A stretch of DNA of 64,000 nucleotides, taken from the NCBI GenBank assembly GCA_035063765.1, contig JAPSFT010000007.1, positions 1-64,000 of the forward strand. The letters are read 5' to 3'. Position numbers and translations under genes: made by a program. The stretch comes from Deltaproteobacteria bacterium (GTDB lineage: Bacteria > Myxococcota_A > UBA9160 > PR03). Shown here one piece after another: positions 21,871 to 56,493 of this stretch. The notes below the pieces were generated by a model that had not been told where the DNA came from, searched no databases, and worked only from the letters and a program-made list of their open reading frames with translations. Within the stretch, counting starts at the first letter, position 1. Each line of letters starts with the position of its first letter.

Positions 21871-24185
21871 CGCTCCGGCTCGCCTTCGCCGCCGCTCCCC
21901 TGGCCCTGCTCGCCTGCGGGCCGCGCCTTGCGATCCTCTCGCCGGCGGACCTCTCGCAGGCCGACGCCAGCGGCGCCGTCCCGATCGTGATCGACCTCGC
22001 GCAGCCGCTCGGCGCGGGTGCAAGCGCCACCGCCAGCCTGCTGCGCGGCATCGATGGTCCCGCTGCGAGCATCCTGCCGGTGCCGCTCGCCGTCGACGGC
22101 GCCGAGGCCACGGCCGCGCTCGCCGCCGCGGACCTCGTGCCGGGCCGGCACACGCTCTTCGTCCGCGTCGACCGCGACGGGGACGGGCGGCCCGACGCGA
22201 CCGCGAGCGCCACCTTCTCGTGGGAGCCCGCCCTCGCGGCCGCGAACCCGGAGCTCTGCGATCCGCTCGACCCGGCGCGCTGCCTGTACCCGTTCCCGAG
22301 CGATCGCTTCACGGTGGCGGACCCGGCGATGGACTCGGGCCGGCGGGTGGCCTTCCCGCTCGCGGCCATGCCGGTCTCGCGCCTCGGGAAGGCGATCGAC
22401 CCGAGCGAGTGGAACCGCAACGACGGCTTCAGCCCGGGCCCCAAGATGCTCACCGTGGTGCCGGGCCTCGACCTCGTCGCGACCGGCGCGCCGCTCATCA
22501 CGCGCATCGCCGACTCGCTCGCGCCGGACTCCCCGGTGGTCCTGATCGACGCCGACAGCGGGGACCGCCAGCTCGTGTGGGCCGAGCTCGACCCCGCAGC
22601 CCCGGGCCTGCTGATCCTGCGGGTCGGCAAGAACCTTCGCTCGGGCGGCCGCTTCATCGTGGCGCTGCGCAACCCGAAGGACGCCGCCGGCCAGCCGATC
22701 GCGCCGGCGCGGGCCTTCGAGCTCTACCGCGACGGCATCCCCACCTTCCTGCCGGCGTTCGAGGAGCGGCGCCCGCACATGGAGAGCCTGTTCGCGGCGC
22801 TCGCCGGCGCCGGCGTGGCCCGCGAGGAGCTCTTCCTCGCCTGGGACTTCACCGTGATCAGCAAGCGCAACCTCTCGGAGCGCATGCTGGCGATGCGCGA
22901 GGACACCTTCGATTCGCTCGCCGAGACCGCGCCGCCCTTCGCAGTGACGCTCGTGGAGGAGAACCCGAACAGCGACGGGCGCGTGGCCCGCCGCATCAGC
23001 GGCACCTTCACGCTGCCGCTCTACCTCACCGGCACCGGCGCACCCGGTTCGCGGCTGCTCCAGGGGCCCGACGGCCTGCCGGTGCGCAGCACGGCCGGGG
23101 ACTTCTCGTCGCCCTTCCGCTGCATCCTGCCCAAGGCCGCGAGCGCCGAGAACCCCTCCCGCCTCGTGCTCTACGGCCACGGCCTGCTCGGCTCCGAGAG
23201 CGAGGTGAACGCCGCCAACCTGCGCCGCTTCGCCGAGGAGCACAACATCACGTTCTGCGCGACGCGCTGGCACGGCATGTCGGACGACGACTACGACTAC
23301 ATCGTCGGCACGATCCTGGGCGACCTGTCGCACTTCCCCGCTCTCGCGGATCGGCTCCACCAGGGCATGCTGTCGTTCCTGGTGCTCGGGCGGCTGATGA
23401 AGCACCCCGACGGCCTCGCCTCGGACCCGGCCTTCCAGGACGCCGGGGGGCGGCCCCTGATCGACACCAGCAACCTGTTCTACGACGGCAACAGCCAGGG
23501 CGCGATCGCCGGCGGCGGTCTCGCCGCCTTCGCGCAGGACTACACGCGCGCGGTGCTCGGCGTGCCGAGCATGAACTACAGCACCCTGCTCCGGCGGAGC
23601 GTGGACTTCGACCCCTTCGCGATGCTCCTCAACGTCGTCTACGGCGACCCCTACGAGACCCCGCTCGACATCGCGCTGATCCAGATGCTGTGGGACCGCG
23701 TCGAGACCAACGGACACGCCAACCACCTGACGAGCGACACCTACCAGGACACGCCGGCCAAGAAGATCCTGCTGCACGTGGCCTTCGGCGATCACCAGGT
23801 GGCGAACGTCTCGGCGGAGGTGGAGGCGCGCACGATCGGCGCGCGCATCCACCAGCCTGCCCTCGCGCCGGGCCGCCACCACGACGAGCAGCTCCCGGAG
23901 GACCCGGACAACCAGGCGTACTTCGGCATCGAGCCGCTTCCGGCCGGGCCCTGGGACGGATCCGCGCTCGTCGTCTGGGACAGCGGCACGCCGACGCCAC
24001 CGACCGGCATCGTGCCGCCGCGCTCGCCGGAGTTCGGGAAGGACCCGCACGAGACGCCACGCTGCATGCCGGAGGCCCGCGTGCAGAAGTCGGAGTTCCT
24101 GCGCTCCGGCGGGGCCGTGATCGACGTGTGCGGCGGTGGGCCGTGCCTGGCGGTGGACCCGCCGCCCTGCCTGCCGTCGCCGTAG
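21867..24185 (+). CDS. Large lipoprotein with alpha/beta-hydrolase domain
   Basis: The 772-residue protein has a lipobox LLAC (Cys17). Residues 30-110 look like an Ig-like domain ending HTLFVRVDRDGDGRPDATAS. The C-terminal half is an alpha/beta hydrolase: oxyanion region RLVLYGHGLLGS, nucleophile elbow YDGNSQGAIAGG (Ser in G-N-S-Q-G), and an acidic/His region later (AFGDHQVANV). The overall pattern matches large secreted esterase or lipase-like lipoproteins seen in deltaproteobacteria. Substrate is unknown. The ATGA overlap with the PEP-CTERM gene suggests a joint surface role. Confidence 0.75.
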   Translation: MTLRLAFAAAPLALLACGPRLAILSPADLSQADASGAVPIVIDLAQPLGAGASATASLLRGIDGPAASILPVPLAVDGAEATAALAAADLVPGRHTLFVRVDRDGDGRPDATASATFSWEPALAAANPELCDPLDPARCLYPFPSDRFTVADPAMDSGRRVAFPLAAMPVSRLGKAIDPSEWNRNDGFSPGPKMLTVVPGLDLVATGAPLITRIADSLAPDSPVVLIDADSGDRQLVWAELDPAAPGLLILRVGKNLRSGGRFIVALRNPKDAAGQPIAPARAFELYRDGIPTFLPAFEERRPHMESLFAALAGAGVAREELFLAWDFTVISKRNLSERMLAMREDTFDSLAETAPPFAVTLVEENPNSDGRVARRISGTFTLPLYLTGTGAPGSRLLQGPDGLPVRSTAGDFSSPFRCILPKAASAENPSRLVLYGHGLLGSESEVNAANLRRFAEEHNITFCATRWHGMSDDDYDYIVGTILGDLSHFPALADRLHQGMLSFLVLGRLMKHPDGLASDPAFQDAGGRPLIDTSNLFYDGNSQGAIAGGGLAAFAQDYTRAVLGVPSMNYSTLLRRSVDFDPFAMLLNVVYGDPYETPLDIALIQMLWDRVETNGHANHLTSDTYQDTPAKKILLHVAFGDHQVANVSAEVEARTIGARIHQPALAPGRHHDEQLPEDPDNQAYFGIEPLPAGPWDGSALVVWDSGTPTPPTGIVPPRSPEFGKDPHETPRCMPEARVQKSEFLRSGGAVIDVCGGGPCLAVDPPPCLPSP

Positions 24186-45004: not shown

Positions 45005-46338
45005 GCCGGCTCCCCGAGCACACCGGCCAGCGCGGCCACGCTCTCGGCAAGGCCGGCGCGTTCGTCGGGCTCCTGCGCGAGCACGCGGCGCAGCGGCTCG
45101 TCGAGGCGGCGCGCCAGGTCCACCGCGGGATCGGAGCCGGGCTGGTAGGCGCCGGTCAGGATCAGGTCTGCGGCCTCACGCCAGGTGGCGAGCACCTCGC
45201 GGGCGCGCCGGGCGAGACGCCGGTGCGGCGCATCGACGACGTCCGGCATCACGCGCGACACGCTCGCGAGCACGTCGATCGCCGGGAACTGGCCGCGCTC
45301 GGCCAGCTCGCGCGCGAGCACGATGTGGCCGTCGAGCAGCGAACGTGCGGCGTCGGCTACCGGCTCGAGCGGATCATCGCCCTCGACGAGCACGGTGTAG
45401 ATACCGGTCACCGTGCCACCACCCACCGCGGTGCCGGCGCGCTCGAGCAGGGCGGGCAGCGCACTCCACATCGAGGGCGGGTAGCCGCGCGTCGCCGGCG
45501 GCTCTCCGGCAGCAAGGCCGATCTCTCGCATCGCTGTGCAGAAGCGGGTCACCGAGTCCATCAGCAGCAGCACATGGCGGCCTGCGTCGCGGAAGGACTC
45601 GGCGATCGCCGTGGCGGCGAGTGCCGCGCGGACGCGCAGGTTGGGGGCCTCGTCGCTGGTCGCCACCACGACTACCGAGCGGGCAAGACCATCGCCGAGG
45701 TCACGCTCGAGGAAGTCACGTACCTCGCGGCCGCGCTCGCCGATCAGCGCGATCACCGCCACGTCACACGCCGTGTAGCGGGCGACCTGACCGAGCAGCG
45801 TCGACTTGCCGACGCCGGAGCCGGCGAAGATGCCGAGTCGCGCGCCGCGGCCCACCGTGAGCAGAGCGTTGATCGCGCGCACGCCGAGGTCGAGCGGCTC
45901 GCGCACGCGAGGGCGGCCGAGTGCGGGCTCGGGCGCGCGGTGGAGCGGGGTCGAGGCGACGCCGTCGAGCGAGGGACCGCCGTCGATCGGGCGGCCGAGG
46001 CCGTCGAGCACGCGGCCGAGCAGCGCCGGGCCGGCGGCGACGCGCGGATGGGTGCGCGCCAGCGACACGCGCCAGCCGGGTGCCACGCCGTGGGGCGCCT
46101 CGAGCGGCATCAGCAGGAAGCGGCCATCGCGGAAGCCCACGACCTCGGCCGCGAAGCCACCGGTACCCCGCTCCGGATCGATGCGGCAGACCGAGCCCAC
46201 GCGGGCCGCCGGCGGGCCTTCGGACTCGACCACCGCGCCCACCACCGAACGCACGCGCCCATCGCGGTGCAGGAGCGGCAGCGCGGCGAGGCGCTCGCAA
46301 CACGCTGCGAGCAACGGGGCGTCGTAGGCAGCGGTCAC
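45001..46338 (-). CDS. fliI: Flagellum-specific ATPase FliI
   Basis: The 445-residue cytoplasmic ATPase of flagellar type III export has its P-loop at residues 173-180 (GSGVGKST, K178). Other F1-ATPase-like blocks include CDVAVIALIGERGREVRDFL, Walker B HVLLLMDSVTRF and the FliI-specific GLAAGEPPATRGYPPSMWSA. The end has DPLEPVADAARSLLDGHIVL. The GTG start at 46338 overlaps the fliH stop as GTGA. It works with FliH and FliJ, both encoded alongside. Confidence 0.95.
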   Translation of the reverse strand: MTAAYDAPLLAACCERLAALPLLHRDGRVRSVVGAVVESEGPPAARVGSVCRIDPERGTGGFAAEVVGFRDGRFLLMPLEAPHGVAPGWRVSLARTHPRVAAGPALLGRVLDGLGRPIDGGPSLDGVASTPLHRAPEPALGRPRVREPLDLGVRAINALLTVGRGARLGIFAGSGVGKSTLLGQVARYTACDVAVIALIGERGREVRDFLERDLGDGLARSVVVVATSDEAPNLRVRAALAATAIAESFRDAGRHVLLLMDSVTRFCTAMREIGLAAGEPPATRGYPPSMWSALPALLERAGTAVGGGTVTGIYTVLVEGDDPLEPVADAARSLLDGHIVLARELAERGQFPAIDVLASVSRVMPDVVDAPHRRLARRAREVLATWREAADLILTGAYQPGSDPAVDLARRLDEPLRRVLAQEPDERAGLAESVAALAGVLGEPA

Positions 46339-47075
46339 GGCACAGGCTCGGGTGCGGGTGTGGACGCGCCGAGCTCGGGCGCCGTCGACGGCGCATCGGC
46401 GAGCTCGGCGCGCACGCGCTCGAGGACGTCGGCTACCACGGCCCTCACGTCGCCGCTGCGGCCGACCACGCGCGCCTCGCCCGGCGCCAGCGTGGCGTCG
46501 GTCACGAGCACGAGCCGTCCGTCGCGCTCGAGCGTCGCACCCTGCGGGCCCGCTCCGAGCGTTGCGCGGTCGGCTGCGCAGACGTGGAGCGCGAGCGGCT
46601 CGTCGGGCGGGAACAGCTCGACGGCGCGGTCCACCAGCGCTGCGAGGAGGTCCTGGGGCGCGGGCGGCAGCCCGAGCACGCGCTCGGCGATCGCGCAGGC
46701 GAGCTCGATCACGAGCCGTCGGTTCTCGGTCAGGTAGGCGCGGCGCAGGGCGCCGAGCTCGCAGGCAGCCGCGGCGAGCGCGTCCGTCGCGGCGCGCAGC
46801 GCGTCGGCTTCCTGCCATGGCAGCGCGCCGCGTCCGGCACGCTCGCCCTCCTCCCAGGCGGCCCGGCGCATCGCCTCGACGTCCAGGGCAGGCGCCGGCG
46901 GCGCGGCAGCCGGCGGCGACTCCGGGCGCCACGGCGCCTCGCCGGCTCGCCGGAACGCGCCGGCGGCGGGCAGCGGCTCGGGCGCGAACGCGCCCGCCCC
47001 GCCCGACGCGGGCGTGAACGCAGTCGACACCGTCTCGCAACTCACCGCTGCCCGCTCCTCCGTCACGCCACGCAC
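46335..47075 (-). CDS. fliH: Flagellar export regulator FliH
   Basis: The 246-residue protein has a Pro/Ala-rich N-terminus and then a helix with MRRAAWEEGERAGRGALPWQ. A C-terminal domain of the FliH/V-type ATPase subunit E type follows: ENRRLVIELACAIAERVLGL, then a strand-rich part with LERDGRLVLVTDATLAPGEA. The last motif (L-x-P-G-x-x-x-V/R-S-x-x-G) is usual for FliH. It anchors and regulates FliI. It begins 4 bases after the fliF stop, where fliG would normally be found. Confidence 0.85.
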   Translation of the reverse strand: MRGVTEERAAVSCETVSTAFTPASGGAGAFAPEPLPAAGAFRRAGEAPWRPESPPAAAPPAPALDVEAMRRAAWEEGERAGRGALPWQEADALRAATDALAAAACELGALRRAYLTENRRLVIELACAIAERVLGLPPAPQDLLAALVDRAVELFPPDEPLALHVCAADRATLGAGPQGATLERDGRLVLVTDATLAPGEARVVGRSGDVRAVVADVLERVRAELADAPSTAPELGASTPAPEPVP

Positions 47076-47079
47076 CGCC

Positions 47080-48660
47080 TCACCCCTGCTGCAGCCAGCT
47101 CTGGATGGCCTTCACGCTCTCGTCCGCCCGGGCGCGCGCGAGCTGCGCCGCGCCCGCCGGACTCGGCCCGCTGGCACCGGCCGCCGCGGCAGCGAGCGTG
47201 CCACCGCCGAGCTCCACCTCGAGGTCCGAGACGCGTGCGGGCAGCCGCGGCGCGCCCGCCCCGCCCAGTGCCGCGAGCAGCGGGCGGACGACGAAGACAC
47301 CCGCCAACGCCAGCGCAGCGAGCAGCACGAGCCCGCGCAGCACCTGCGCGAGCAGCGGCCAGGCGGGGCCGTCGCTCCAGCCACCAGCCTCGCCAGCGTC
47401 GCCCTCCGGAGCGTCCTGGAAGGCGGCGTTGGCGATCGTCAACTGGTCGCCGCGCTCCTCCGAGAAGCCGATGGCGCGCTTCGCCAGTGCCTCGAAGTCG
47501 CGTAGCGCCGGCTCTTCCCACGGCGTGAAACCACCATCGGCGCCGCTCTTGCCGTCGAGGAGGACGGCGACGGTGAGGCGCCTCACCGTACCCGAAGGCT
47601 CGACCGAGCGGCGGACGGTCTTGCTGAGCTCGTAGTTGATCGTCTCGCTGGTGCGCGAGCTGCGCCGGCTCGCGCCTCCGCCGCTGCTCGCCGGCGTCTC
47701 GGTCGTACCCGGCACGTTCGAGGCCACGCCGGGTGGGCCCTCGGCGAGCCCCACCCCGTCCTCGTCGGTCTCGACGGTGCGCTGCTCGCTGCGCTCGATC
47801 TGGGAGTCGGGGTCGAAGCGCTCTTCGGTCTCCTCGGTCTGCGTCCAGTCGAGGTCGGCGCGCACCTGCGCCACGACACGGCCCGCGCCCACCACCGGCG
47901 CCAGGATCGCCTCGACGCGCTGCCCCAGCTCACGTTCGAGCCGGGCCTGGTACTCGCCGGTACCGGCCGGCTGCGCCGGGTCGACCCCGTCGTCGCCGGC
48001 GGGTGCGAGCATGCGCCCGCGTCCGTCCACGACCGTGACGCGGTCTGCCGCCAGCCCCTCCACCGACGACGACACCAGGTGCACGACGCCGCGCACCTGC
48101 GCCGCGGACAGCGCTGCGCCCGGATGCAGCTCGACGATCACCGAGGCGCTCGGCTTGCGCTCGCGGTCGCCGACGAAGGGCGAGCGCTCGGGCAGCGCGA
48201 TCTGCACCCGCGCCCGCATCACCGGCTCGAGCTGGGCGATCGAGCGCGCCAGCTCGCCTTGGAGGGCGCGCCGGTAGTTGACGCGGTGCACGAAGTCCGT
48301 GACCCCGAAGTCCGGCTTGTCGAAGAGCTCGAAACCGGCGCCGCCGCCCGCCGGCAGGCCCTGGCCCGCGAGCTGGATGCGCGCCGCGTAGACGCGGTCG
48401 GCCGGCACCTGCACTTCGTTGCCCCCCGCCGCGAGCTGGTAGGGGATCCGCTCCCCGTCGAGTACCTCGACGACGCGGGCCATCTCCTCCGGAGCGATAC
48501 CGCGGAACAGCGGCGCCCAGGTCGGGCCGCCCGCGCCGGCGCCGAGCCAGGCGAAGAAGGCCAGCGAGCCGACCGCCGTCGCTGCGAACAGCAGCCGGCG
48601 GCCGAGCGGCCAGGCCAGGAACTGCGTGCGGAGGTTCTGGAGCCAATCGGGCATCGGCAT
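47080..48660 (-). CDS. fliF: Flagellar MS-ring protein FliF
   Basis: The 526-residue protein has two membrane helices, RRLLFAATAVGSLAFFAWLG near the start and RGLVLLAALALAGVFVVRPL near residue 440. The periplasmic ring-building motifs include GTWAPLFRGIAPEEMARVVE-like sequence, FDKPDFGVTDFVHRVNYRRA, and RVQIALPERSPFVGDRERKP then SASVIVEL. The C-terminal cytoplasmic tail, which binds FliG in other species, ends DESVKAIQSWLQQG. That tail is typical, so a FliG should exist somewhere in the genome. Confidence 0.95.
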   Translation of the reverse strand: MPMPDWLQNLRTQFLAWPLGRRLLFAATAVGSLAFFAWLGAGAGGPTWAPLFRGIAPEEMARVVEVLDGERIPYQLAAGGNEVQVPADRVYAARIQLAGQGLPAGGGAGFELFDKPDFGVTDFVHRVNYRRALQGELARSIAQLEPVMRARVQIALPERSPFVGDRERKPSASVIVELHPGAALSAAQVRGVVHLVSSSVEGLAADRVTVVDGRGRMLAPAGDDGVDPAQPAGTGEYQARLERELGQRVEAILAPVVGAGRVVAQVRADLDWTQTEETEERFDPDSQIERSEQRTVETDEDGVGLAEGPPGVASNVPGTTETPASSGGGASRRSSRTSETINYELSKTVRRSVEPSGTVRRLTVAVLLDGKSGADGGFTPWEEPALRDFEALAKRAIGFSEERGDQLTIANAAFQDAPEGDAGEAGGWSDGPAWPLLAQVLRGLVLLAALALAGVFVVRPLLAALGGAGAPRLPARVSDLEVELGGGTLAAAAAGASGPSPAGAAQLARARADESVKAIQSWLQQG

Positions 48661-48663
48661 CGT

Positions 48664-48966
48664 TCACACCTGCATCCGCATGATCTCGTGGTAGGCCTCG
48701 AGTGCGCGGTCGCGCACCTGGGTCACGAGCTGGACCGAGAGCTCGGCCCGCGACAGCGACACCATCGTCTCGACCACGTCGCCCTGGCCCGCGGCCAGCG
48801 CGCGGGCTCGTGCTTCGGCGTCCTGCTGCACGCGGTCGGCGTCCTCGAGCAGCGCGCCGAGCCGCTCCGCGAAGCTGCCGCCGGCAGCCGCGCGCGGCCC
48901 GCCGGCGGCGGGCGCCGGATCACCCGCCAGTGCGCGGGCCCCGCTCTCGATGGCGCCCGTCGTCAC
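48664..48966 (-). CDS. fliE: Flagellar MS-ring/rod adapter FliE
   Basis: A 100-residue protein, standard for FliE. It has SFAERLGALLEDADRVQQDA and ends VVETMVSLSRAELSVQLVTQ then VRDRALEAYHEIMRMQV, the conserved C-terminal helices. It joins the FliF ring to the proximal rod. It overlaps flgC by four bases and is 3 bases from fliF. Confidence 0.92.
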   Translation of the reverse strand: MTTGAIESGARALAGDPAPAAGGPRAAAGGSFAERLGALLEDADRVQQDAEARARALAAGQGDVVETMVSLSRAELSVQLVTQVRDRALEAYHEIMRMQV

Positions 48967-49388
48967 CGGCCGATCCGCAGGGCGGCTTCGCCCATCTCGC
49001 GCGTCTTCTTGAGCGCAAGCAGGTCCGCCTCGAACGAGCGGCTCGCCGTGAGCAGGTTCGCGAGCTCCGCGACCAGGTCGACGTTCGGCATGCGCACGTA
49101 GCCCTCGGCGTCGGCATCGGGATGGCCCGGATCGAAGCGCAGCGGGCCCGGCGTCGGGTCGATCTCGACGCGCGGGACCTCGACGCTTCGCAGGCGCCGC
49201 GCCAGCCGGTCGGCGAACGGGCCCTCGAGCGCACGAGCGGCGAAGACGGGGTCGCGTCGCTGATACGGCCCACCCTCGGCGGTGCGGGTGGTCTGGGCGT
49301 TGGCGAGATTCGAGGCAGTCACGAGCATGCGCGCGCGCTGCGCGAGCAGGCCCGAGACGGCCACGTCAGAGATCTGCGTGAGGCTCAT
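48963..49388 (-). CDS. flgC: Flagellar proximal rod protein FlgC
   Basis: The 141-residue protein begins ISDVAVSGLLAQRARMLVTA then SNLANAQTTRTAEGGPYQRR, the FlgC N-terminal rod motif. It ends GYVRMPNVDLVAELANLLTA and SRSFEADLLALKKTREMGE, the C-terminal rod helix. It lies in the order flgB-flgC-fliE that is standard for proximal rod genes. Confidence 0.94.
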   Translation of the reverse strand: MSLTQISDVAVSGLLAQRARMLVTASNLANAQTTRTAEGGPYQRRDPVFAARALEGPFADRLARRLRSVEVPRVEIDPTPGPLRFDPGHPDADAEGYVRMPNVDLVAELANLLTASRSFEADLLALKKTREMGEAALRIGR

Positions 49389-49402: not shown

Positions 49403-49777
49403 CTAACGGCCGCGCCCGAGTGCGATCTGGCGCAGCGCGAACAGCCGCGAGAGCACCTCGGCCTGCTCGCGGAAGGCCCCGGCGTTGCGGGACAGCGCCA
49501 CCAGCTCGCGGTCGACGTCGACGTCGTTGCCGTCCGGGCGCGGAGCGCCGCCCTGGGCGGTGATCCGCCAGCCCGACGCGGCGTCGCCGCCGAGATGGCC
49601 GGCCTGGGTGCGGCGCGGCGCCGCACCGCGCGCGAGCGCGTCGGCGAAGGTGACCTCCGCGCTTCGGTAGCCGGGCGTGTCGGCATTCGCGACGTTGGCC
49701 GCGAGCACGGCCTGGCGCGCAACGCGGAAGCGCATCGCGTCCTCGACCGCGGAAACGGTCCCCCCGAGCCAGTCCAA
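49403..49777 (-). CDS. flgB: Flagellar proximal rod protein FlgB, TTG start
   Basis: The 124-residue protein starts LDWLGGTVSAVEDAMRFRVA and then has ANVANADTPGYRSAEVTFAD, the rod-protein consensus. It ends FREQAEVLSRLFALRQIALG. A longer frame from an ATG at 49816 exists. The sigma-54 promoter at 49821-49835 would start transcription near 49809, inside that extension. A perfect AGGAGG (49786-49791, minus strand) lies eight bases before the TTG at 49777, which also gives the family-standard N-terminus. I therefore call the TTG as the start. It is the first gene of the rod/basal-body operon. Confidence 0.88.
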   Translation of the reverse strand: MDWLGGTVSAVEDAMRFRVARQAVLAANVANADTPGYRSAEVTFADALARGAAPRRTQAGHLGGDAASGWRITAQGGAPRPDGNDVDVDRELVALSRNAGAFREQAEVLSRLFALRQIALGRGR

Positions 49778-49785
49778 GCGCCGGT

Positions 49786-49791
49786 CCTCCT
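49786..49791 (-). promoter_or_regulatory. Ribosome binding site supporting the TTG start of flgB
   Basis: AGGAGG on the minus strand, eight bases before TTG. The alternative upstream ATG has no such site. Confidence 0.75.
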
Positions 49792-49820
49792 GCGGCGGTG
49801 CGCCGCGGCCTGCCATCGAA

Positions 49821-49835
49821 GCAACTGTCGTGCCA
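49821..49835 (-). promoter_or_regulatory. Sigma-54 promoter of the flgB operon
   Basis: The minus strand reads TGGCACGACAGTTGC: a consensus -24 TGGCACG and -12 TTGC with 10 bases between the invariant GG and GC. Transcription would start near 49809, giving a leader of about 30 bases to the flgB TTG. It lies in the 189-base gap after the degraded activator gene. Confidence 0.85.
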
Positions 49836-49966
49836 CTTGCGGCCCCCTGGTGAAACCGTCGTGATCACGCGGACCTGGACCCGGCGGCCGCTCTCCGGGC
49901 GGGACCCGCGCGCCATCGCACATCGCAACCTGAAATGTCGGAGTGGAAAGGTCTGCCGACCCAGGT

Positions 49967-51190
49967 CTACACCAGGCCATAGTGATGGAGCTTGTTGCGC
50001 AGCGTGCGCACGCTGATCCCGAGCGCGCGTGCTGCCCGGGTCCGGTTGCCCGCGCACAGCGCGAGCGCCTGCTCGACCGCGCGACGCTCGAGCGCGCGCA
50101 GGTCGAGCACCGGCGCCGCCGCCGCCCGGCGGGCGCGCGCGGCCGCGTGCGGCGCCAGGAGCGCTGCCACGTCGACAGCCTCGCCCGGGAACCACAGCAC
50201 CGCGCGCTGCATCAGGTTCTCGAGCTCGCGCAGGTTCCCGGGAAACGGATGCTGGCACAGCGCGGCGAGCGCGGCGGCGCCGAGCCGTGGCGGTGCGACA
50301 CCCTGTGCCGCGGCGAATCGCTCGCCGAGAGCCACGGCGAGCCGCGCCAGCTCGTTCGGCCGCTCGCGCAGCGGCGGTACGAACAGCCGCACGACGTCGA
50401 GGCGCAGTCGAAGCTCCGCGCGCAGCCTCGCGTCGGGGCCGAGAGGGCGCTCACAGATGACCACGACGCGCGGCGCAGCGCCGGCGCCGAGCCCGGCGAG
50501 CAGCCGTGCCTGGGCCACGGGCGACAGAGCGCCCGGCTCCACCAGCACGAGCGTTCCGTCCCGAGCCGCCGCCAGCGCTCCCTGGGTGCCACCGCCGTCG
50601 CCGAGCAGCACGGAGCCGGCCTGGTCGAGCTCGCGCGCATCGAGCTCCATGAGCGGACCGTCCCGGCGCGAGCTTGCCGCGTGCAGATAGCGCGCGAGGC
50701 GGCGCCTCCCGGTGGCGGCCTCGCCCACGATCGCGACGGTGGCGTCGGCACGCGCCGCAGCCTCGGCCTCGCGGACCAGCGCCTGCATCGCGGGATCGCC
50801 GGGGACCGGCGCGAAGTGCGGCGCGAGCGGACCGCGCGCGTGCTGGCCGGCCGCTGCCGCGAGCGCGCGCTCGAGGGCGCGCACGTCGAAGGGCTTGCCG
50901 AGGAAGGCGCGCGCGCCGCCTCGCAACGCCCGCACGGCGAGCGCGAGTCGATCCCGTTCGCCCATCCCGATCGCTGCGGGCGCGTCGGGCCGCCGGCACA
51001 GGCGCTCGAGCCCGGCCACGTCCGCGTCGTCGGCGAGGTCGGTCAGCACCAGGGTGAAGGCGCCGGGATCGCCCGCGAGCGCGGCGTCGAGGCTCGGAGC
51101 GGTGTCGACGCGCCATCCCGCCGCGCGTACGCATCCCGCGAGCAGCTCCGCCAGAGCCGGGTCCGGCTCGACGATCAGGACCCGCTGCAC
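49967..51190 (-). CDS. FlgR/NtrC-like regulator with degraded AAA+ ATPase motifs
   Basis: The protein has 407 residues in three parts. A receiver (1-115) retains D51 and K99. An AAA+ domain of sigma-54-activator ancestry follows (120-345), then a Fis-type HTH (CAGNRTRAARALGISVRTLR). The ATPase is damaged. Walker A is GEAATGRR (156-163), with Arg in place of the Lys of GESGTGKE. Walker B is GTLVLVEPG, with Val for the Asp. The sigma-54-contacting GAFTGA loop is replaced by a shortened GGGTQGA. Later motifs are normal (LRERPNELARLA, PFPGNLRELENLMQRA). DNA binding is plausible but ATP-driven sigma-54 activation is not. The GTG start overlaps the upstream kinase-like gene by 16 bases. Confidence 0.82.
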   Translation of the reverse strand: MQRVLIVEPDPALAELLAGCVRAAGWRVDTAPSLDAALAGDPGAFTLVLTDLADDADVAGLERLCRRPDAPAAIGMGERDRLALAVRALRGGARAFLGKPFDVRALERALAAAAGQHARGPLAPHFAPVPGDPAMQALVREAEAAARADATVAIVGEAATGRRRLARYLHAASSRRDGPLMELDARELDQAGSVLLGDGGGTQGALAAARDGTLVLVEPGALSPVAQARLLAGLGAGAAPRVVVICERPLGPDARLRAELRLRLDVVRLFVPPLRERPNELARLAVALGERFAAAQGVAPPRLGAAALAALCQHPFPGNLRELENLMQRAVLWFPGEAVDVAALLAPHAAARARRAAAAPVLDLRALERRAVEQALALCAGNRTRAARALGISVRTLRNKLHHYGLV

Positions 51191-51825
51191 GCCACCTCCC
51201 CGCTCGCGAAACGCACCGCCAGCCGCTCGCGCCGCAAGGCGCCGTCGCGGCGCTCCTCGTGCTCCAGGCTCGCGCCCTGCGCCGCGACGAGTGTGCGGAG
51301 CGCGCTGCGCGCTGCCGCGTCGCTGGCGCCGTCGCGCGCGGGCCCTGCCGCCTCGACCGCGAGGACCAGTGCCCCATCGTCGGGCGCCTGCTCTGCCGCG
51401 AGCGTCAGCCCGCCGCCCGTCGCGAGCCCGGCCGCCACGCAGCGCAGGAGCAGGAGCGCGGCGCGCCGCAGCGCCTGCGGCTCGCCGGCGAGGGCCGTCT
51501 CGGCTTCGGCCACCGCAGCTTCCAGATGCAGACCGCGCGCGGCCAGGGCCGGCCTCAGGCGCTCGACGATCGTCGTCAAGAGCGGGGCCACCGGCACGGC
51601 CTCGGGGCACCGGGGCTGCGCGCCGCGCCCGGGCGAGGCGGCCAGCGCCGCGAGCCCGCGGTCGAGGTCGGCGACCGCGACCGAGATCGAGCGCAGCAGC
51701 GCGCGTGCACGCGGCGTGGCTACGTCGCGCGCGAGCTGGCTCGCGGCCAGCTCGACGCGCGCCAGCGCACCGCGCAGGCTACGGCTCGTTGCGATCGCTG
51801 CGTGCACCCCTAGCTCCTCTCGCAT
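51175..51825 (-). CDS. FlgS/FleS-like histidine-kinase relative without catalytic residues
   Basis: The 216-residue protein reads RSLRGALARVELAASQLARD where active FlgS/FleS-type kinases have A-H-E-I-R-N-P-L-x-x-I-E-L-x-A-S-x-L; the phospho-accepting His is gone. The ATPase-like part keeps the general layout (LRRAALLLLRCVAAGLATGG in place of the N box). Asn, the DxGxG motif and the GxGL lid are missing. I started it at the ATG at 51825, as the 50 residues upstream are low-complexity. It overlaps the degraded FlgR-like gene by 16 bases. Together they look like a flagellar two-component pair that lost enzymatic activity but stayed in frame. Confidence 0.7.
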   Translation of the reverse strand: MREELGVHAAIATSRSLRGALARVELAASQLARDVATPRARALLRSISVAVADLDRGLAALAASPGRGAQPRCPEAVPVAPLLTTIVERLRPALAARGLHLEAAVAEAETALAGEPQALRRAALLLLRCVAAGLATGGGLTLAAEQAPDDGALVLAVEAAGPARDGASDAAARSALRTLVAAQGASLEHEERRDGALRRERLAVRFASGEVACSGS

Positions 51826-51899: not shown

Positions 51900-54143
51900 C
51901 TAGCCATCCCCGCGCGTGAGCCGCGCGTCGTGCAAGCTCGCCACGGCTCGACGCTCGCGGGCCAGCGCCGACCACGCTCCGCCCGACGGCTCGGCCGCAC
52001 TCGCCGCGAAGGCGGCTTCACCCCGGTCGTCGCCTTCGGGCGCGAGCGCGCCGATCCAGTAGTGCGCCTGCGCGCGGCGCTCGCCCGGCGGCAGCGCTGC
52101 TGCAGCGAGGGCGTAGAGAGAGGCGGCCCGGCTGCCGCTCCCCTCACGGCGCGCACGATGGGCGGCCAGCAGCGCGGCGTCGCCCAGGGGCTCTCCACCG
52201 CTGGCGGGACCGAGCTCGTCGCCGAGGCGCTCGACCGCACCGATCAGCCGCTCCCCCAGATCGAGGTCACGCGGCGCGCTGCGCGCAGCGCGCGTGAGCA
52301 CGATCAGCGCGGCGATCTGCTCCGCGGGCGCGACGGGCGCAGGAGGGACCTGCACGCGGAGCGGCACCGGCGGATCCGACGCCAGGGCGGCGGCGTTCGC
52401 TGCCGGATCCTGCGACTGCGCATCCCTGTCGAACGAGGCAGTCGCGTCGGACCGTCCCGCCGCATCCAGCGGAGCCGCCGCTGGCGCCAGGGGAGCGGGC
52501 GCGAGCAGCGGCGCCACCATTGCCGCCGCGCCGGCCGCATCACCGCGCGCCAGCGCCACCTCGGCGCGCAGCCGGCGCCAGGCGGCGCCGTCGTCGCCCG
52601 GTGCTTCGAGGCGCTCGTTGGCGGCGGCCGCGACGGCGTCGAGCTGGCCGACGGCGAGCAGGCCTTCGGCGAGCCCGAGCGCGACCGCCGCCCGGCCGCG
52701 CGGGCCGAAGCCCCGCACGACGGCTCGCTGCAGGGGCAGCGCCGCCTCCGGGCCGAGCAGCTCTGCCTGGCACCGCGCCAGCGCCGCCAACGGTGCGGGA
52801 TCCGGGGCGCGGTGCAGGAGCGCATCCAGGTGCGGTGCGAGCAGATCGACGAGCTGCGGGCAGTCGAGATCGTCACCGATCTGGGTCGACAGCCGCGCGA
52901 GCACATCGCCGAGCGTAGCGTCGGCTTCCTCGCCGCCGAGTGCCAACACCCGCTCGAGCGCGGCCGTCGGCCGGTCCGCGAGCAGGTCGAGCCGCGCCGC
53001 GAGCCGGCGCGCGTAGTCCGCGATCGGAGCCGGCTCCGGCCCATCGAGCGCTGCCAGCCGCTCCACCAACTCGGCCGTCCGCAGCTCGCGTGCAGGGGCG
53101 GCCAGGCCGCTTTCCTTCGCCAGCGCGTCGAGATCGAGCTCCAGCACACGCAGCTCCGCCAGTCGTGCAGCCGGCGCCTGCGGGTCGACCCTCCGCACGA
53201 TCTCGAGCTGTGCGCGAGCCTCTCCCTCGCGCCCGGCGCCGGCCAGCAGCTCCGCGAAGCGCAGGTGCGCCACCGCCCGATGCGGCTCGTCGAGCTCCGC
53301 TTCGAGCGCGCGCTCGAACCGGGTCCGAGCGTCGTCCGTGCGGTCGAGCGCGGCAGCCGCGGCGGCGCTGCGCACCACGAAGGGGCCGACCGGGACACCG
53401 CGCGCCGCGGCGCGCGGCAGGGCTGCATCGGCGGCAGCCAGCGCGGTGCGGCTCGCGCCGTGCGCAAGTGCGATGTCGGCAAGGCGGAGAGCGGCGAGCT
53501 CCGGGAGCCCGGCGGGCAAGCGCGGCGACACTGTGTCAGCCGTGGCGAAAGGCGCCTCGCCCGCGGGCGGTGGCATCTCCGAGCGGGCCGTGCCGTCGGC
53601 GGCGCTCCGTTCGGTCTCCCCCCCTCGCGTTGGCTCGGCCTCGTGCCCGCCCTCCGCGGCTCCCGCGTCCATGGCTTCGGTGAGCGTGCGGTAGAGCGCC
53701 TCCGCCTCCTCGACGCGCCCGGCGGCCAGCAGCGCCTCGGCGCGTAGCCAGCGCGCGGCGGCAGCGGCCTCGCCGGCGCCGGCCGCTTCGGCGAGCGACT
53801 CTGCGCGGTGTGCTTCCGCGGCCGCCTCGGGAACGAGCTCGAGCACGAGGGCAAGGGCAGCGGCGCCGAGCCAGCGGCACGCCGCGGCGTCGGCGGCCGA
53901 CAGCTCACGCGCACTGGCGAGGCGCTCTGCACGCAGGGCGAGCCGGGCTCCGCGGGTCGGAAGCGGGGGCGGCGCCTCCGCGGGACACGCCCAGGCGACC
54001 GGAAGGTCGATCGGCGGCGTCGCCGTGGCGTCCCCGTAGAGCGCCCACCAGGGATCCGGCATCGCGGCTTGCGCGGGAACACCCGGCCCGGACGCGCCGG
54101 CGAGCAAGAGCGCCGTGGCCAGGACCCGCCGGCAGACACTCAT
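51900..54143 (-). CDS. Secreted helical-repeat (TPR-like) protein
   Basis: The 747-residue protein has a signal peptide (RRVLATALLLAGASGPGVPA). The mature part is a long array of alpha-helical hairpins with TPR-like periodicity. Examples are AAAARWLRAEALLAAGRVEE then AEALYRTLTEAMD, and AHLRFAELLAGAGREGEARA then QLEIVRRVDPQAP. Two Ala/Pro-rich insertions occur near residues 170-205 and 540-590. It is probably periplasmic. It is translationally coupled to the PilZ gene (ATGA) within the flagellar cluster. The layout recalls large TPR proteins of flagellar motors or gliding machinery, but no specific homologue is recognised. Confidence 0.7.
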   Translation of the reverse strand: MSVCRRVLATALLLAGASGPGVPAQAAMPDPWWALYGDATATPPIDLPVAWACPAEAPPPLPTRGARLALRAERLASARELSAADAAACRWLGAAALALVLELVPEAAAEAHRAESLAEAAGAGEAAAAARWLRAEALLAAGRVEEAEALYRTLTEAMDAGAAEGGHEAEPTRGGETERSAADGTARSEMPPPAGEAPFATADTVSPRLPAGLPELAALRLADIALAHGASRTALAAADAALPRAAARGVPVGPFVVRSAAAAAALDRTDDARTRFERALEAELDEPHRAVAHLRFAELLAGAGREGEARAQLEIVRRVDPQAPAARLAELRVLELDLDALAKESGLAAPARELRTAELVERLAALDGPEPAPIADYARRLAARLDLLADRPTAALERVLALGGEEADATLGDVLARLSTQIGDDLDCPQLVDLLAPHLDALLHRAPDPAPLAALARCQAELLGPEAALPLQRAVVRGFGPRGRAAVALGLAEGLLAVGQLDAVAAAANERLEAPGDDGAAWRRLRAEVALARGDAAGAAAMVAPLLAPAPLAPAAAPLDAAGRSDATASFDRDAQSQDPAANAAALASDPPVPLRVQVPPAPVAPAEQIAALIVLTRAARSAPRDLDLGERLIGAVERLGDELGPASGGEPLGDAALLAAHRARREGSGSRAASLYALAAAALPPGERRAQAHYWIGALAPEGDDRGEAAFAASAAEPSGGAWSALARERRAVASLHDARLTRGDG

Positions 54144-54682
54144 CGGACGGCGCCTTCCGGTCGCATGCGATGCCGCTGGGCCAGATCCACCCGATTCACG
54201 AGGCGCACGATCGCGTCGCGATCGCTCTCGTCGATCAGCCGGAAGCGCACGCTCACCTCGTCATGCGCGGCGTCGCGCCCGCCCGGGTAGCGCGCGACGA
54301 GCTCCCCGATCGCGGTGACCGGGCCCGCCGTCTGGCCGAGCAGCAGCTCTACCAGCACATCGTCGCCCGCCGCCAGGTCTTCGTCCTCGCATTCCATGCG
54401 CATGCCTGCGCCGGAGATGACGACGCGGCGTAGCGCCTGGGGATCGAGCGGCCGCGGTAGCGTGGGATCGAGCAGGGCGATCATGCGGTCGATCTTGAAC
54501 TCGAGCTGGCGAGCCCAGGCCGGTGCGCTGAGGTCCGCCTGGCCATCGCCGTCAGGATCGGGCCCGGCCAGGCGCTGCTCGAGCGTCGCGACGTCGGCGA
54601 GCGTCGCACGCCGCAGCCGTGCGGCAAGGCGCGTCTCGACGCGGTAGTAGGAGCGGGTCGAGCCGGCGATGCGTTGGGCCAC
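54140..54682 (-). CDS. PilZ-domain protein
   Basis: The 180-residue protein opens with TRSYYRVETRLAARLRR, the R-x-x-x-R part of the cyclic-di-GMP binding motif. The second part, normally (D/N)xSxxG, reads VVISGAGMRME. It continues as strands to VSVRFRLIDESDRDAIVRLV. A helical insertion of about 60 residues separates the two halves, as in PilZ proteins of flagellar or gliding clusters. It probably reports c-di-GMP level to the motor or export machinery. It sits 3 bases after the first gene of the operon and overlaps the helical-repeat gene. Confidence 0.78.
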   Translation of the reverse strand: MAQRIAGSTRSYYRVETRLAARLRRATLADVATLEQRLAGPDPDGDGQADLSAPAWARQLEFKIDRMIALLDPTLPRPLDPQALRRVVISGAGMRMECEDEDLAAGDDVLVELLLGQTAGPVTAIGELVARYPGGRDAAHDEVSVRFRLIDESDRDAIVRLVNRVDLAQRHRMRPEGAVR

Positions 54683-54685
54683 GGT

Positions 54686-55294
54686 TCAGCCCTCCGCCGC
54701 AGCGGCGGCACCGGCCGTGTGGAGCGCCCGGAGCCGGCCGGCGAGCGCCTCGACCCGCGCCGCCAGCTCGTAGTCGAGCAGGTCGGCGAGCGCCAGGAGG
54801 TCTCCGCGCTCATGGGCGGCGACTGCGGCCGCCAGTGGCGCGCGCAGCGCGATGGCGGTGGCGGCGGGCAGGTCGCGCGCCTCGGTGAGAGCGGCGCCCA
54901 CGACCGCGAGAGCGTGCAGGAGCATCTCGAGCGCTTCGCAGGCCTCCGCCCACAACGCCACGGCCCGCCCGGACTCGCCCGCGCGCAGCAGGCCGGCGGC
55001 GCGCGCCAGTGCGGCCGCAAGCCCCGGCGCGTAGTCGGCGGCGCTCTCCAGCGCGTCGATCGCGACGCCACGGAGTGGACGCGAGATCACATCGATCTTC
55101 GCCACGCCGTCGCTCGCCAGCTCGTACAACTCGGGAAACTCGCTTTCGTCGATCGCCCGTCCGTCCACGTGCACCGCCACCAGCACGTGCTCTTCGCCAT
55201 CCGCGTGCAGACAGGCTTCGAGCGCCGCACCCACGGTCGGGTGACGCCCTGGATCGAGCCGGTCGAGCCGACCGTTGTGGCGCAAAGCCGTCAT
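54686..55294 (-). CDS. Hypothetical protein, first gene of the sigma-54-controlled cluster
   Basis: A 202-residue protein with no recognised family. The first 75 residues form a small alpha/beta part (ALEACLHADGEEHVLVAVHV then DGRAIDESEFPELYELASDG). The rest is helical and rich in Ala and Leu, ending in LLALADLLDYELAARVEALA. It lies about 50 bases behind a sigma-54 promoter. The helical segment resembles small flagellar chaperones in composition only. The function is unknown. Confidence 0.65.
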   Translation of the reverse strand: MTALRHNGRLDRLDPGRHPTVGAALEACLHADGEEHVLVAVHVDGRAIDESEFPELYELASDGVAKIDVISRPLRGVAIDALESAADYAPGLAAALARAAGLLRAGESGRAVALWAEACEALEMLLHALAVVGAALTEARDLPAATAIALRAPLAAAVAAHERGDLLALADLLDYELAARVEALAGRLRALHTAGAAAAAEG

Positions 55295-55353
55295 CGGGCC
55301 CCTCCGTCGCCGACACACGAATGGATTCCGTGCGGCGCACCCACCCGCAGAGA

Positions 55354-55368
55354 GCAAGGACGGTGCCA
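55354..55368 (-). promoter_or_regulatory. Sigma-54 promoter of the minus-strand flagellar cluster
   Basis: The minus strand reads TGGCACCGTCCTTGC followed by T: the -24 TGGCAC and -12 TTGC elements with 10 bases between GG and GC. The predicted transcript start near 55342 leaves a leader of about 48 bases to the ATG at 55294. Confidence 0.82.
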
Positions 55369-55483
55369 AGCCCATCCGCGCGTGAGCGCTGGGCGCAGGT
55401 CGACGGGTTTCGCCCGCACGCAGGGTGCCTACCAGCGGGCCGTCGCGGCGCGCAGCCGCCGCCGCGCCGGCCGCCACCCGAAA

Positions 55484-55498: not shown

Positions 55499-55578
55499 GT
55501 TGCCCCCGGCGACCGCCCCTGGCCGGCTGCGAAGGGCCTGGCGATTTGCAGGATGGAGCGAACGCCTTGCAGAGCGAA

Positions 55579-56493
55579 ATGCGCGACGAGCAGAAGCTGC
55601 CGACCGCACCGGATCCGGGACGGGTGATCTTCGTCGCCGAGGTGGCGAGCAACCACGCCCGCGACCTCGACCGCGCACTGGCCTTCGTCGATACCGCGGC
55701 CGAGATCGGCTGCGACGTCGTGAAGTTCCAGCTCTTCCGCGTACGCGAGCTGTTCGCGGCCGAGGTGCTCGCGGGCAGCGCCACGCACCGCGCGCGCGAG
55801 GCGTGGGAGCTTCCCGAAGCGTTCGTGCCCATCCTCGCCGAACGCGCACGCGCGCGCGGGCTCGGCTTCTCTTGCACGCCGTTCCATCTCGACGCCGTCG
55901 ACTTGCTGGCGCCCTGCGTGGACTTCCTGAAGATCGCCTCCTACGAGCTGCTGTGGGAGGACCTGCTGCGCGCCTGCGCGCGGAGCGGGCTTCCCGTCGT
56001 GCTCTCGACCGGCATGGCAACGCTCGCGGAGGTGGAGCACGCGGCACGCGTGCTCGCCGCGAACGGCTGCCGAGACCTCGGCCTTCTCCACTGCGTGTCG
56101 CTCTACCCGACACCGCCGAGCGCCGCGAACCTGGGCGCGCTCGGCACCTTGCGCGCGCTGGCGCCGGCGCTGCCCGGCGTACGGCTACGGATCGGCTGGT
56201 CCGACCACAGCGCAGATCCCGCCGTCGTGTTGCGTGCCGTGCACCGGCACGGCGCCGAAATCGTCGAGCTGCACCTCGACCTCGACGGAGCGGGTGCCGA
56301 GTTCGAGCCGGGGCATTGCTGGCTGCCGGAGCGCGCCGCCGAGACGATCCGGCTGGTACGCACCGGTCTGGCTGCCGACGGCGACGGCACCAAGGAGCCG
56401 GACGCCGGTGAAGCCGACGAACGCGCCTGGCGCGCCGATCCGGCCGACGGCCTGCGCCCGCTCCGGACGACGCGAGCGGGGCTGGCGGCGTGA
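55579..56493 (+). CDS. NeuB-family (nonulosonic acid synthase-type) enzyme without SAF domain
   Basis: The 304-residue TIM barrel is of the NeuB family. It has IFVAEVASNHARDLDRALAF, EIGCDVVKFQLF, GLGFSCTPFHLDAVDLL, FLKIASYELLWEDLL, GLPVVLSTGMATLAEVEHAA, GLLHCVSLYPTPPSAANLGA and RIGWSDHSADP in order. Members condense PEP with a sugar to make sialic-, pseudaminic- or legionaminic-type acids. The C-terminal SAF (antifreeze-like) domain of standard NeuB is absent; the protein ends about 60 residues earlier. A TTG at 55567 is an alternative start. First gene of the nine-gene glycan operon. Confidence 0.82.
   Translation: MRDEQKLPTAPDPGRVIFVAEVASNHARDLDRALAFVDTAAEIGCDVVKFQLFRVRELFAAEVLAGSATHRAREAWELPEAFVPILAERARARGLGFSCTPFHLDAVDLLAPCVDFLKIASYELLWEDLLRACARSGLPVVLSTGMATLAEVEHAARVLAANGCRDLGLLHCVSLYPTPPSAANLGALGTLRALAPALPGVRLRIGWSDHSADPAVVLRAVHRHGAEIVELHLDLDGAGAEFEPGHCWLPERAAETIRLVRTGLAADGDGTKEPDAGEADERAWRADPADGLRPLRTTRAGLAA

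Follow-up and report, generated by a model that had tools for sequence, protein, structure and literature searches.

What can a flagellar sigma-54 activator homologue do once its catalytic motifs are gone? Sigma-54 activators are taken to act through ATP hydrolysis. The question is raised by a gene pair beside flgB in the 64,000-nucleotide stretch of DNA analysed here (the window; GCA_035063765.1, contig JAPSFT010000007.1), which the first-pass annotation had described as a kinase and a sigma-54 activator that had both lost their catalytic motifs, and which might work as a DNA-binding modulator or anti-activator of the sigma-54 promoters beside it with a true activator encoded elsewhere. The activator homologue, EBP1, is a FlbD/FleR-type enhancer-binding-protein homologue of 407 amino acids (49967–51190, minus strand, GTG start; translation, Pfam, NCBIfam and family alignment), and its putative pseudo-histidine-kinase partner (216 amino acids, ATG start) is encoded at 51175–51825 on the same strand, as identified by alignment and by a weak family-profile match to solved histidine kinases. 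Both frames are open and coupled by a 16-base overlap, as annotated, and their GC3 values (0.88 and 0.90) are of coding type, like those of fliF and flgB. The gene order on the minus strand runs from a protein of ∼200 amino acids that heads the pair's own operon (54686–55297, start approximate; ORF) through a PilZ-domain protein (54140–54682; Pfam PilZ, orthologues) and a TPR protein (51900–54143; Pfam, orthologues), whose genes overlap by 4 bases, to the kinase-like gene, EBP1 and then the flgB operon; the TPR gene is found upstream of the pair, on the same strand, in most orthologous loci. The flgB operon (flgB-flgC-fliE-fliF-fliH-fliI-fliJ, minus strand) is headed by flgB (49403–49816; Pfam Flg_bb_rod), followed by flgC (48963–49388; ORF, orthologues), fliE (48664–48966; Pfam) and fliF (47080–48660; Pfam), with flgC, fliH, fliI and fliJ named from translated ORFs. 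The ATG that opens the flgB ORF (49816) stands a few bases from the −12 element of its promoter (49820–49835), and the true flgB start is thus probably further downstream.

EBP1 exhibits clear homology to the sigma-54 activator domain (PF00158 Sigma54_activat, 44.6 bits against a cut-off of 20.2), to the associated lid (AAA_lid_14, 55.7 bits) and to a Fis-type HTH (HTH_8, 47.5 bits). Alignment with canonical activators nevertheless reproduces every catalytic loss that had been reported. Walker A reads GEAATGRR rather than GESGTGKE, with the Lys replaced by R162, and Walker B reads LVLVEPG, with the Asp replaced by Val217 and Glu218 retained, whereas AGSVLLGDG occupies the position where canonical activators have VKGAFTGAV. 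Sensor I is ICERPL instead of the canonical ATNRDL, and the AAA core is 25 residues shorter (120 versus 145). EBP1 still has the lid, GNLRELEN, the two R-finger arginines (segment LRAELRLRL) and a Fis-type HTH, the last in agreement with the earlier description of it as normal. The receiver had been called normal as well, which is correct for D51 and K99, but the second acid and the Thr/Ser switch are missing; the acid pair is E8-P9 (VEPD for VDDE), such that the Mg2+-binding second acid is Pro9, and the switch position is occupied by Gly. The Pfam Response_reg score of 29.6 falls short of the 30.2 cut-off. The best NCBIfam match is the FlbD model NF050807 at 150.1 bits, under its cut-off of 750, the FlgR model NF049963 gives 78.5 bits, below a curated cut-off that is also 750, and a query of the named genomes with EBP1 returns distant activators only (29–33% identity). 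Single-sequence AlphaFold models (mean pLDDT 45.6 for EBP1 and 58.6 for the kinase-like protein) are credible only for a helical hairpin and the HTH. As the Walker A Lys, the Walker B Asp and the GAFTGA loop, i.e. the defining catalytic features, are all absent, EBP1 is on its sequence a homologue of the sigma-54 activators that should not be filed as one of them, and, judged by the loss of ATPase and GAFTGA motifs, it cannot by itself open a sigma-54 promoter.

The kinase-like protein is confirmed, in translation and alignment, to lack the phospho-accepting His, the N-box Asn and the G boxes by which an active kinase of the flagellar two-component systems is recognized: the H-box His is replaced (SRSLRGAL), the N-box has no Asn and there is no DxGxG. 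Pfam matched no domain in its 216 residues. Kinase homology is weak yet detectable across the family, as HisKA is found, with a best E of 6e-4, in 6 of the 12 members and the family profile matches solved histidine kinases at E about 5e-4. The suggestion that the kinase lost its motifs together with the activator was not borne out, as the His is absent from all 12 aligned orthologues, including those beside an intact EBP1 (G033, G007 and G010), and all kinase-like orthologues read are catalytically dead. Joint loss is thereby ruled out, and the alignment identifies the protein as a standing pseudokinase rather than a recent casualty; on its motifs, the pair does not qualify as a working two-component system. 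A candidate outgroup kinase (G087:C22) turned out to be an ordinary PhoR-like kinase.

The distribution of the pair bears on whether the erosion of EBP1 is peculiar to one genome. Among the 60 relatives searched, fliF is present in 16, and in all 16 an EBP1 and/or kinase-like orthologue is found at the flgB locus, with the gene order unchanged wherever the contig is long enough to show it and with EBP1 identities of 34–52%. In a motif table of these orthologues, Walker A, GAFTGA and Walker B are all intact in G007, G010, G033 and G003 (the last with Gln for the Walker B Glu). The Walker motifs are also intact in G008 and G051, where the loop reads GAFSGA, and G016, G034 and G064 have a GALLEA/GAWLEA-like loop. 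In G028, G061, G052, G055, G074, G076, G001 and the genome of the window itself (G000) the loop is gone and Walker B is changed, with the Walker A Lys replaced by Arg in most. EBP1 of G067 has lost the loop or has an eroded core, together with the receiver Asp and Lys, and that of G002, seen only in part, appears eroded. The receivers of G008 and G051 carry Asp to Glu and Lys to Met substitutions beside an intact ATPase (L167 and L168), which may represent a permanent phospho-mimic. On a tree of FlgB, FlgC, FliE and FliF (912 columns), the eroded f1 genomes group with the intact G003 (support 100), and the eroded f5 and f7 groups are placed apart from f1; read on this topology, the EBP1 ATPase would have been lost at least three times independently (f1, f5 and f7), unless the intact state was regained or transferred. 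Intact relatives, which the first-pass annotation would have taken as a sign of decay in one genome, do therefore exist (G003, G007, G010 and G033), but the loss extends to another species of the genus and to another genus, with at least three separate origins, and this parallel loss, together with the constraint on the HTH described below, rules out one-genome decay. In G057 only a C-terminal piece of EBP1 is present (G057:C188, contig positions 23692–24216, ∼2 kb from the flgB promoter; L173), and neither the pseudokinase nor the upstream part of EBP1 gave a match in that genome, reflecting either natural loss or an assembly fault; as the latter is conceivable, this partial EBP1 was left out.

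Eroded EBP1 orthologues within a genus share 63–91% identity in the HTH versus 37–60% in the AAA core, which shrinks from 145 to 120–139 residues in the most eroded orthologues. Estimates of dN/dS per domain (NG86), which are rough because dS of 0.6–1.6 is near saturation in places but clear in their ordering, give 0.04 for the AAA core and 0.03 for the HTH in the intact pair G008/G051, 0.17 and 0.06, respectively, in the loop-less pair G034/G064, and 0.78 for the receiver, 0.32 for the AAA core, 0.35 for the lid and 0.00 for the HTH in the eroded pair G074/G076. Across the eroded lineages the HTH stays at 0.00–0.08, a mark of strong purifying selection, with the ATPase and receiver relaxed, and these substitution patterns indicate that the DNA-binding domain is the part of EBP1 kept by selection.

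The true activator that had been expected elsewhere was found in a second protein, EBP2 (C7:95968–97275), which has intact Walker A and Walker B motifs and a GSFTGA loop (GETGTGKE, FLDE and GSFTGA). Its gene lies in the flagellar export-gene cluster, between fliG and fliM (gene names from translations), with flhA, flhB, fliR, flhF and flhG nearby. The fliG gene adjoining EBP2 (G000:C7:97662–98756, outside the window) is absent from its usual slot between fliF and fliH (window 46335–48660); it is also relocated in G001 and G002, whereas G003 of the same family retains fliF-fliG-fliH, and within this family the genomes with a relocated fliG are the same ones that have an eroded EBP1. The genome encodes 24 well-scoring sigma-54 activator domains and one rpoN, and a further activator-like domain of clearly lower score (G000:C1:28329–28766; 99 bits, positions 2–147 only) is possibly another degenerate activator. 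Clear EBP2 orthologues are present in nearly all flagellated genomes, whatever the state of EBP1, with identities (59–74%) above those of EBP1 and with intact motifs in 8 of 8 loci read; none was found in the incomplete genomes G057, G061 and G074. Orthologues with few or no flagellar genes nearby occur in G040, G043 and G077 (L149, L150 and L153), and EBP2 may have a role beyond flagella.

The sigma-54 promoters proposed to lie beside the pair were both located by a promoter scan on the minus strand. The flgB operon has a perfect −24/−12 promoter, TGGCACGACAGTTGCT, at 49820–49835, and the operon that ends in the pair has one with a single mismatch, TGGCACCGTCCTTGCT, at 55353–55368. In nearly all genomes, whether EBP1 is intact or eroded, the gap separating its gene from flgB contains a perfect or near-perfect sigma-54 promoter. 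Upstream of this promoter is a pair of palindromic sequences, Box A (CGGCAGATYYTKCCG) and Box B (TTTCAGNCTGMAA), whose scores lie 13 and 19 standard deviations of the mean above those of shuffles, although the patterns were read off the same sequences. The box starts are 22–23 bp apart in most of 18 genomes and 33–34 bp apart in four (approximately two or three helical turns), without overlap, and Box B is 76–109 bp from the promoter. In the window, the predicted composite enhancer at flgB (49923–49958, minus strand; box pattern) comprises Box A CGGCAGACCTTTCCA at 49944–49958 and Box B TTTCAGGTTGCGA at 49923–49935, with starts 23 bp apart, and a second predicted element with two mismatches (Box A CGGCAGCTTCTGCTC, Box B TTTCGCTCTGCAA, starts likewise 23 bp apart; 55567–55602, minus strand) stands ∼200 bp upstream of the promoter of the pair's operon. 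In the whole 4.4 Mb genome, the A-N9-B pattern occurs once with zero mismatches (flgB), once with two (the pair's operon) and otherwise with three, i.e. the predicted composite sites occur only at these two sigma-54 promoters. Box B with a promoter is found in 18 of 79 genomes and Box A with a promoter in 11, all of which have the EBP1 locus (reversed controls, 0 in each case), and loci outside the derivation of the boxes (G067, G045 and G057) match as well. Box B matches in G073 and G054, where flagellar genes are absent nearby, are probably due to chance, as is a site at 55483 (plus strand) near a neuB-like gene that scores low for both boxes.

Box B also occurs apart from Box A. In G012, where EBP2 is present and EBP1 was not found, the fliF promoter carries Box B but lacks a clear Box A, and Box B without a Box A match is found at the promoters of PseB-like genes (G010:C50, G001:C60 and G055:C514; L185, L203 and L204) and of a Maf-like gene (G057:C60; L199). 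Because of these sites we infer that Box A belongs to EBP1 and Box B to EBP2, although the assignment of Box A is confounded, as most Box A sites lie directly behind the EBP1 gene and the EBP1-free contrast comes mainly from one genome. The same promoters suggest that flagellin-glycosylation-like genes belong to the putative EBP2 regulon.

Since the ATPase has repeatedly been lost while the DNA sites and EBP2 are kept, the dead EBP1 is probably a DNA-bound partner or brake of EBP2. On balance we favour a model in which EBP1 is a non-catalytic, DNA-bound co-regulator of EBP2, at Box A beside Box B and under control of the pseudokinase, within a flagellar module conserved across the order. To the motif losses, their recurrence, the constraint on the HTH, the conserved promoter and boxes and the intact EBP2, the model adds the presumed box–protein assignment, a presumed EBP1–EBP2 contact, the sign of the effect and a role for the pseudokinase. 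EBP1 would descend from a FlbD/FleR-type sigma-54 activator. As every partner read is a pseudokinase, control of the module probably relied on protein contact, not phosphotransfer, even before the first ATPase was lost. In this genus and at least two other lineages, EBP1 would have lost its ATPase and sigma-54 contact and kept DNA binding. At the flgB and own-operon promoters it would occupy Box A, with EBP2 bound to the adjacent Box B, and would modulate EBP2 either as a brake or as a non-catalytic subunit that cooperates or forms hetero-oligomers with it; the pseudokinase would set the state of EBP1 through contact, in the way that FliX controls FlbD. More specifically, and only tentatively, the dead EBP1 may combine with the catalytic EBP2 into a mixed sigma-54 activator on the composite enhancers, in which it would be the regulatory subunit that anchors the complex to DNA, gated by the pseudokinase without phosphotransfer; catalysis would have been lost several times in parallel, with anchoring kept under selection.

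It is conceivable, if rather unlikely, that EBP1 is instead an anti-activator or repressor that, from Box A, blocks or poisons EBP2 or the sigma-54 RNA polymerase. FlbD represses early genes, including fliF in Caulobacter, at ftr sites (PMC3930126), Box A lies close to the flgF promoter of G001 where a clear Box B is absent, as would suit a repressor, and the retained R-finger arginines and lid imply that EBP1 could join EBP2 rings as a dead subunit. The two boxes, however, stand side by side, about 22 or 33 bp apart and non-overlapping, and the identical arrangement is found beside ATPase-intact orthologues, so that the layout did not arise for repression alone. The first-pass view of the protein as a DNA-binding modulator or anti-activator is thus upheld in its DNA-binding part, with the HTH kept by selection and promoters flanking the pair, but its anti-activator part is one of two live readings, as the non-overlapping boxes fit co-binding at least equally well. 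That EBP1 has turned into a regulator of sigma-70 promoters appears improbable: there are precedents for loss of the GAFTGA loop in proteins that act with sigma-70, namely VpsR, TyrR, HupR and, in Rhodobacter and Caulobacter, NtrC (PMC10274813, PMC3162934), but the composite element occurs in this genome only at two sigma-54 promoters, and the perfect sigma-54 promoter is retained there in eroded genomes. Still less probable is a functionless, decaying relic, as might be read from the lost motifs, the low overall identity (34–52%), the near-neutral receiver of G074/G076 (dN/dS 0.78) and the missing pseudokinase and upstream EBP1 part in G057; all frames other than the G057 case are open with coding-type GC3, the ORF and HTH persist through repeated ATPase loss, and the HTH dN/dS of 0.00–0.08 in eroded lineages contradicts such decay. 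Least credible of all is a sigma-54 activator working with non-canonical motifs, which the retained Walker B Glu, R-finger arginines and lid would allow, as the Walker A Lys, the Walker B Asp, 25 residues of the AAA core and the whole GAFTGA loop, which is essential for sigma-54 contact (PMC3162934), are gone.

The preferred model, a DNA-bound co-regulator gated by a pseudokinase, has partial counterparts among known systems. By analogy, the pair would work most like FlbD/FliX of Caulobacter, with the activator turned non-catalytic in several lineages: FlbD is a flagellar sigma-54-type regulator with an atypical receiver, is controlled by the non-kinase partner FliX (PMC3096577) and both activates and represses (PMC3096577, PMC3930126), and its model is the best NCBIfam match of EBP1. 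Unlike EBP1, which reaches 150 bits of the 750 required, FlbD has GAFTGA and activates, and FliX is not reported to be kinase-like. With FlgS/FlgR, FlrB/FlrC and FleS/FleR the pair shares a soluble, kinase-like partner whose gene adjoins that of an NtrC-type regulator, sigma-54 rod and hook genes and flgB as a target, but those kinases are active on their receivers (PMC7064773), whereas the partner here lacks the His in every orthologue read. The GAFTGA-less proteins (NtrC of Caulobacter and Rhodobacter capsulatus, HupR, TyrR, DhaR and VpsR) have likewise lost the sigma-54-contacting loop and retained DNA binding, as predicted for EBP1; they are reported at sigma-70 promoters (PMC10274813, PMC3162934), whereas the predicted EBP1 sites are at sigma-54 promoters, alongside a catalytic activator. 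Finally, HrpR/HrpS and FleQ/FleT, the latter flagellar with fleT in an operon with fliEFGHIJ, act as two activators jointly on sigma-54 promoters (PMC9542535, PMC7277832), as EBP1 and EBP2 may do. Their partners are not described as ATPase-dead, and hetero-oligomers have been shown there, whereas here they are conjectural. A literature search of partial coverage returned no report of an ATPase-dead flagellar activator paired with a pseudokinase of this sort.

Taken together, a flagellar sigma-54 activator appears to have shed its ATPase at least three times, with its DNA-binding domain more constrained than the rest and its promoters still sigma-54-like. The orthologues, some intact, some half-eroded and some dead, form a natural series in which the catalytic role comes apart from the DNA-bound one, and the kinase homologue that partners them is dead wherever it was read in the order. 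The role of a dead regulator at a sigma-54 enhancer would thereby become directly testable.
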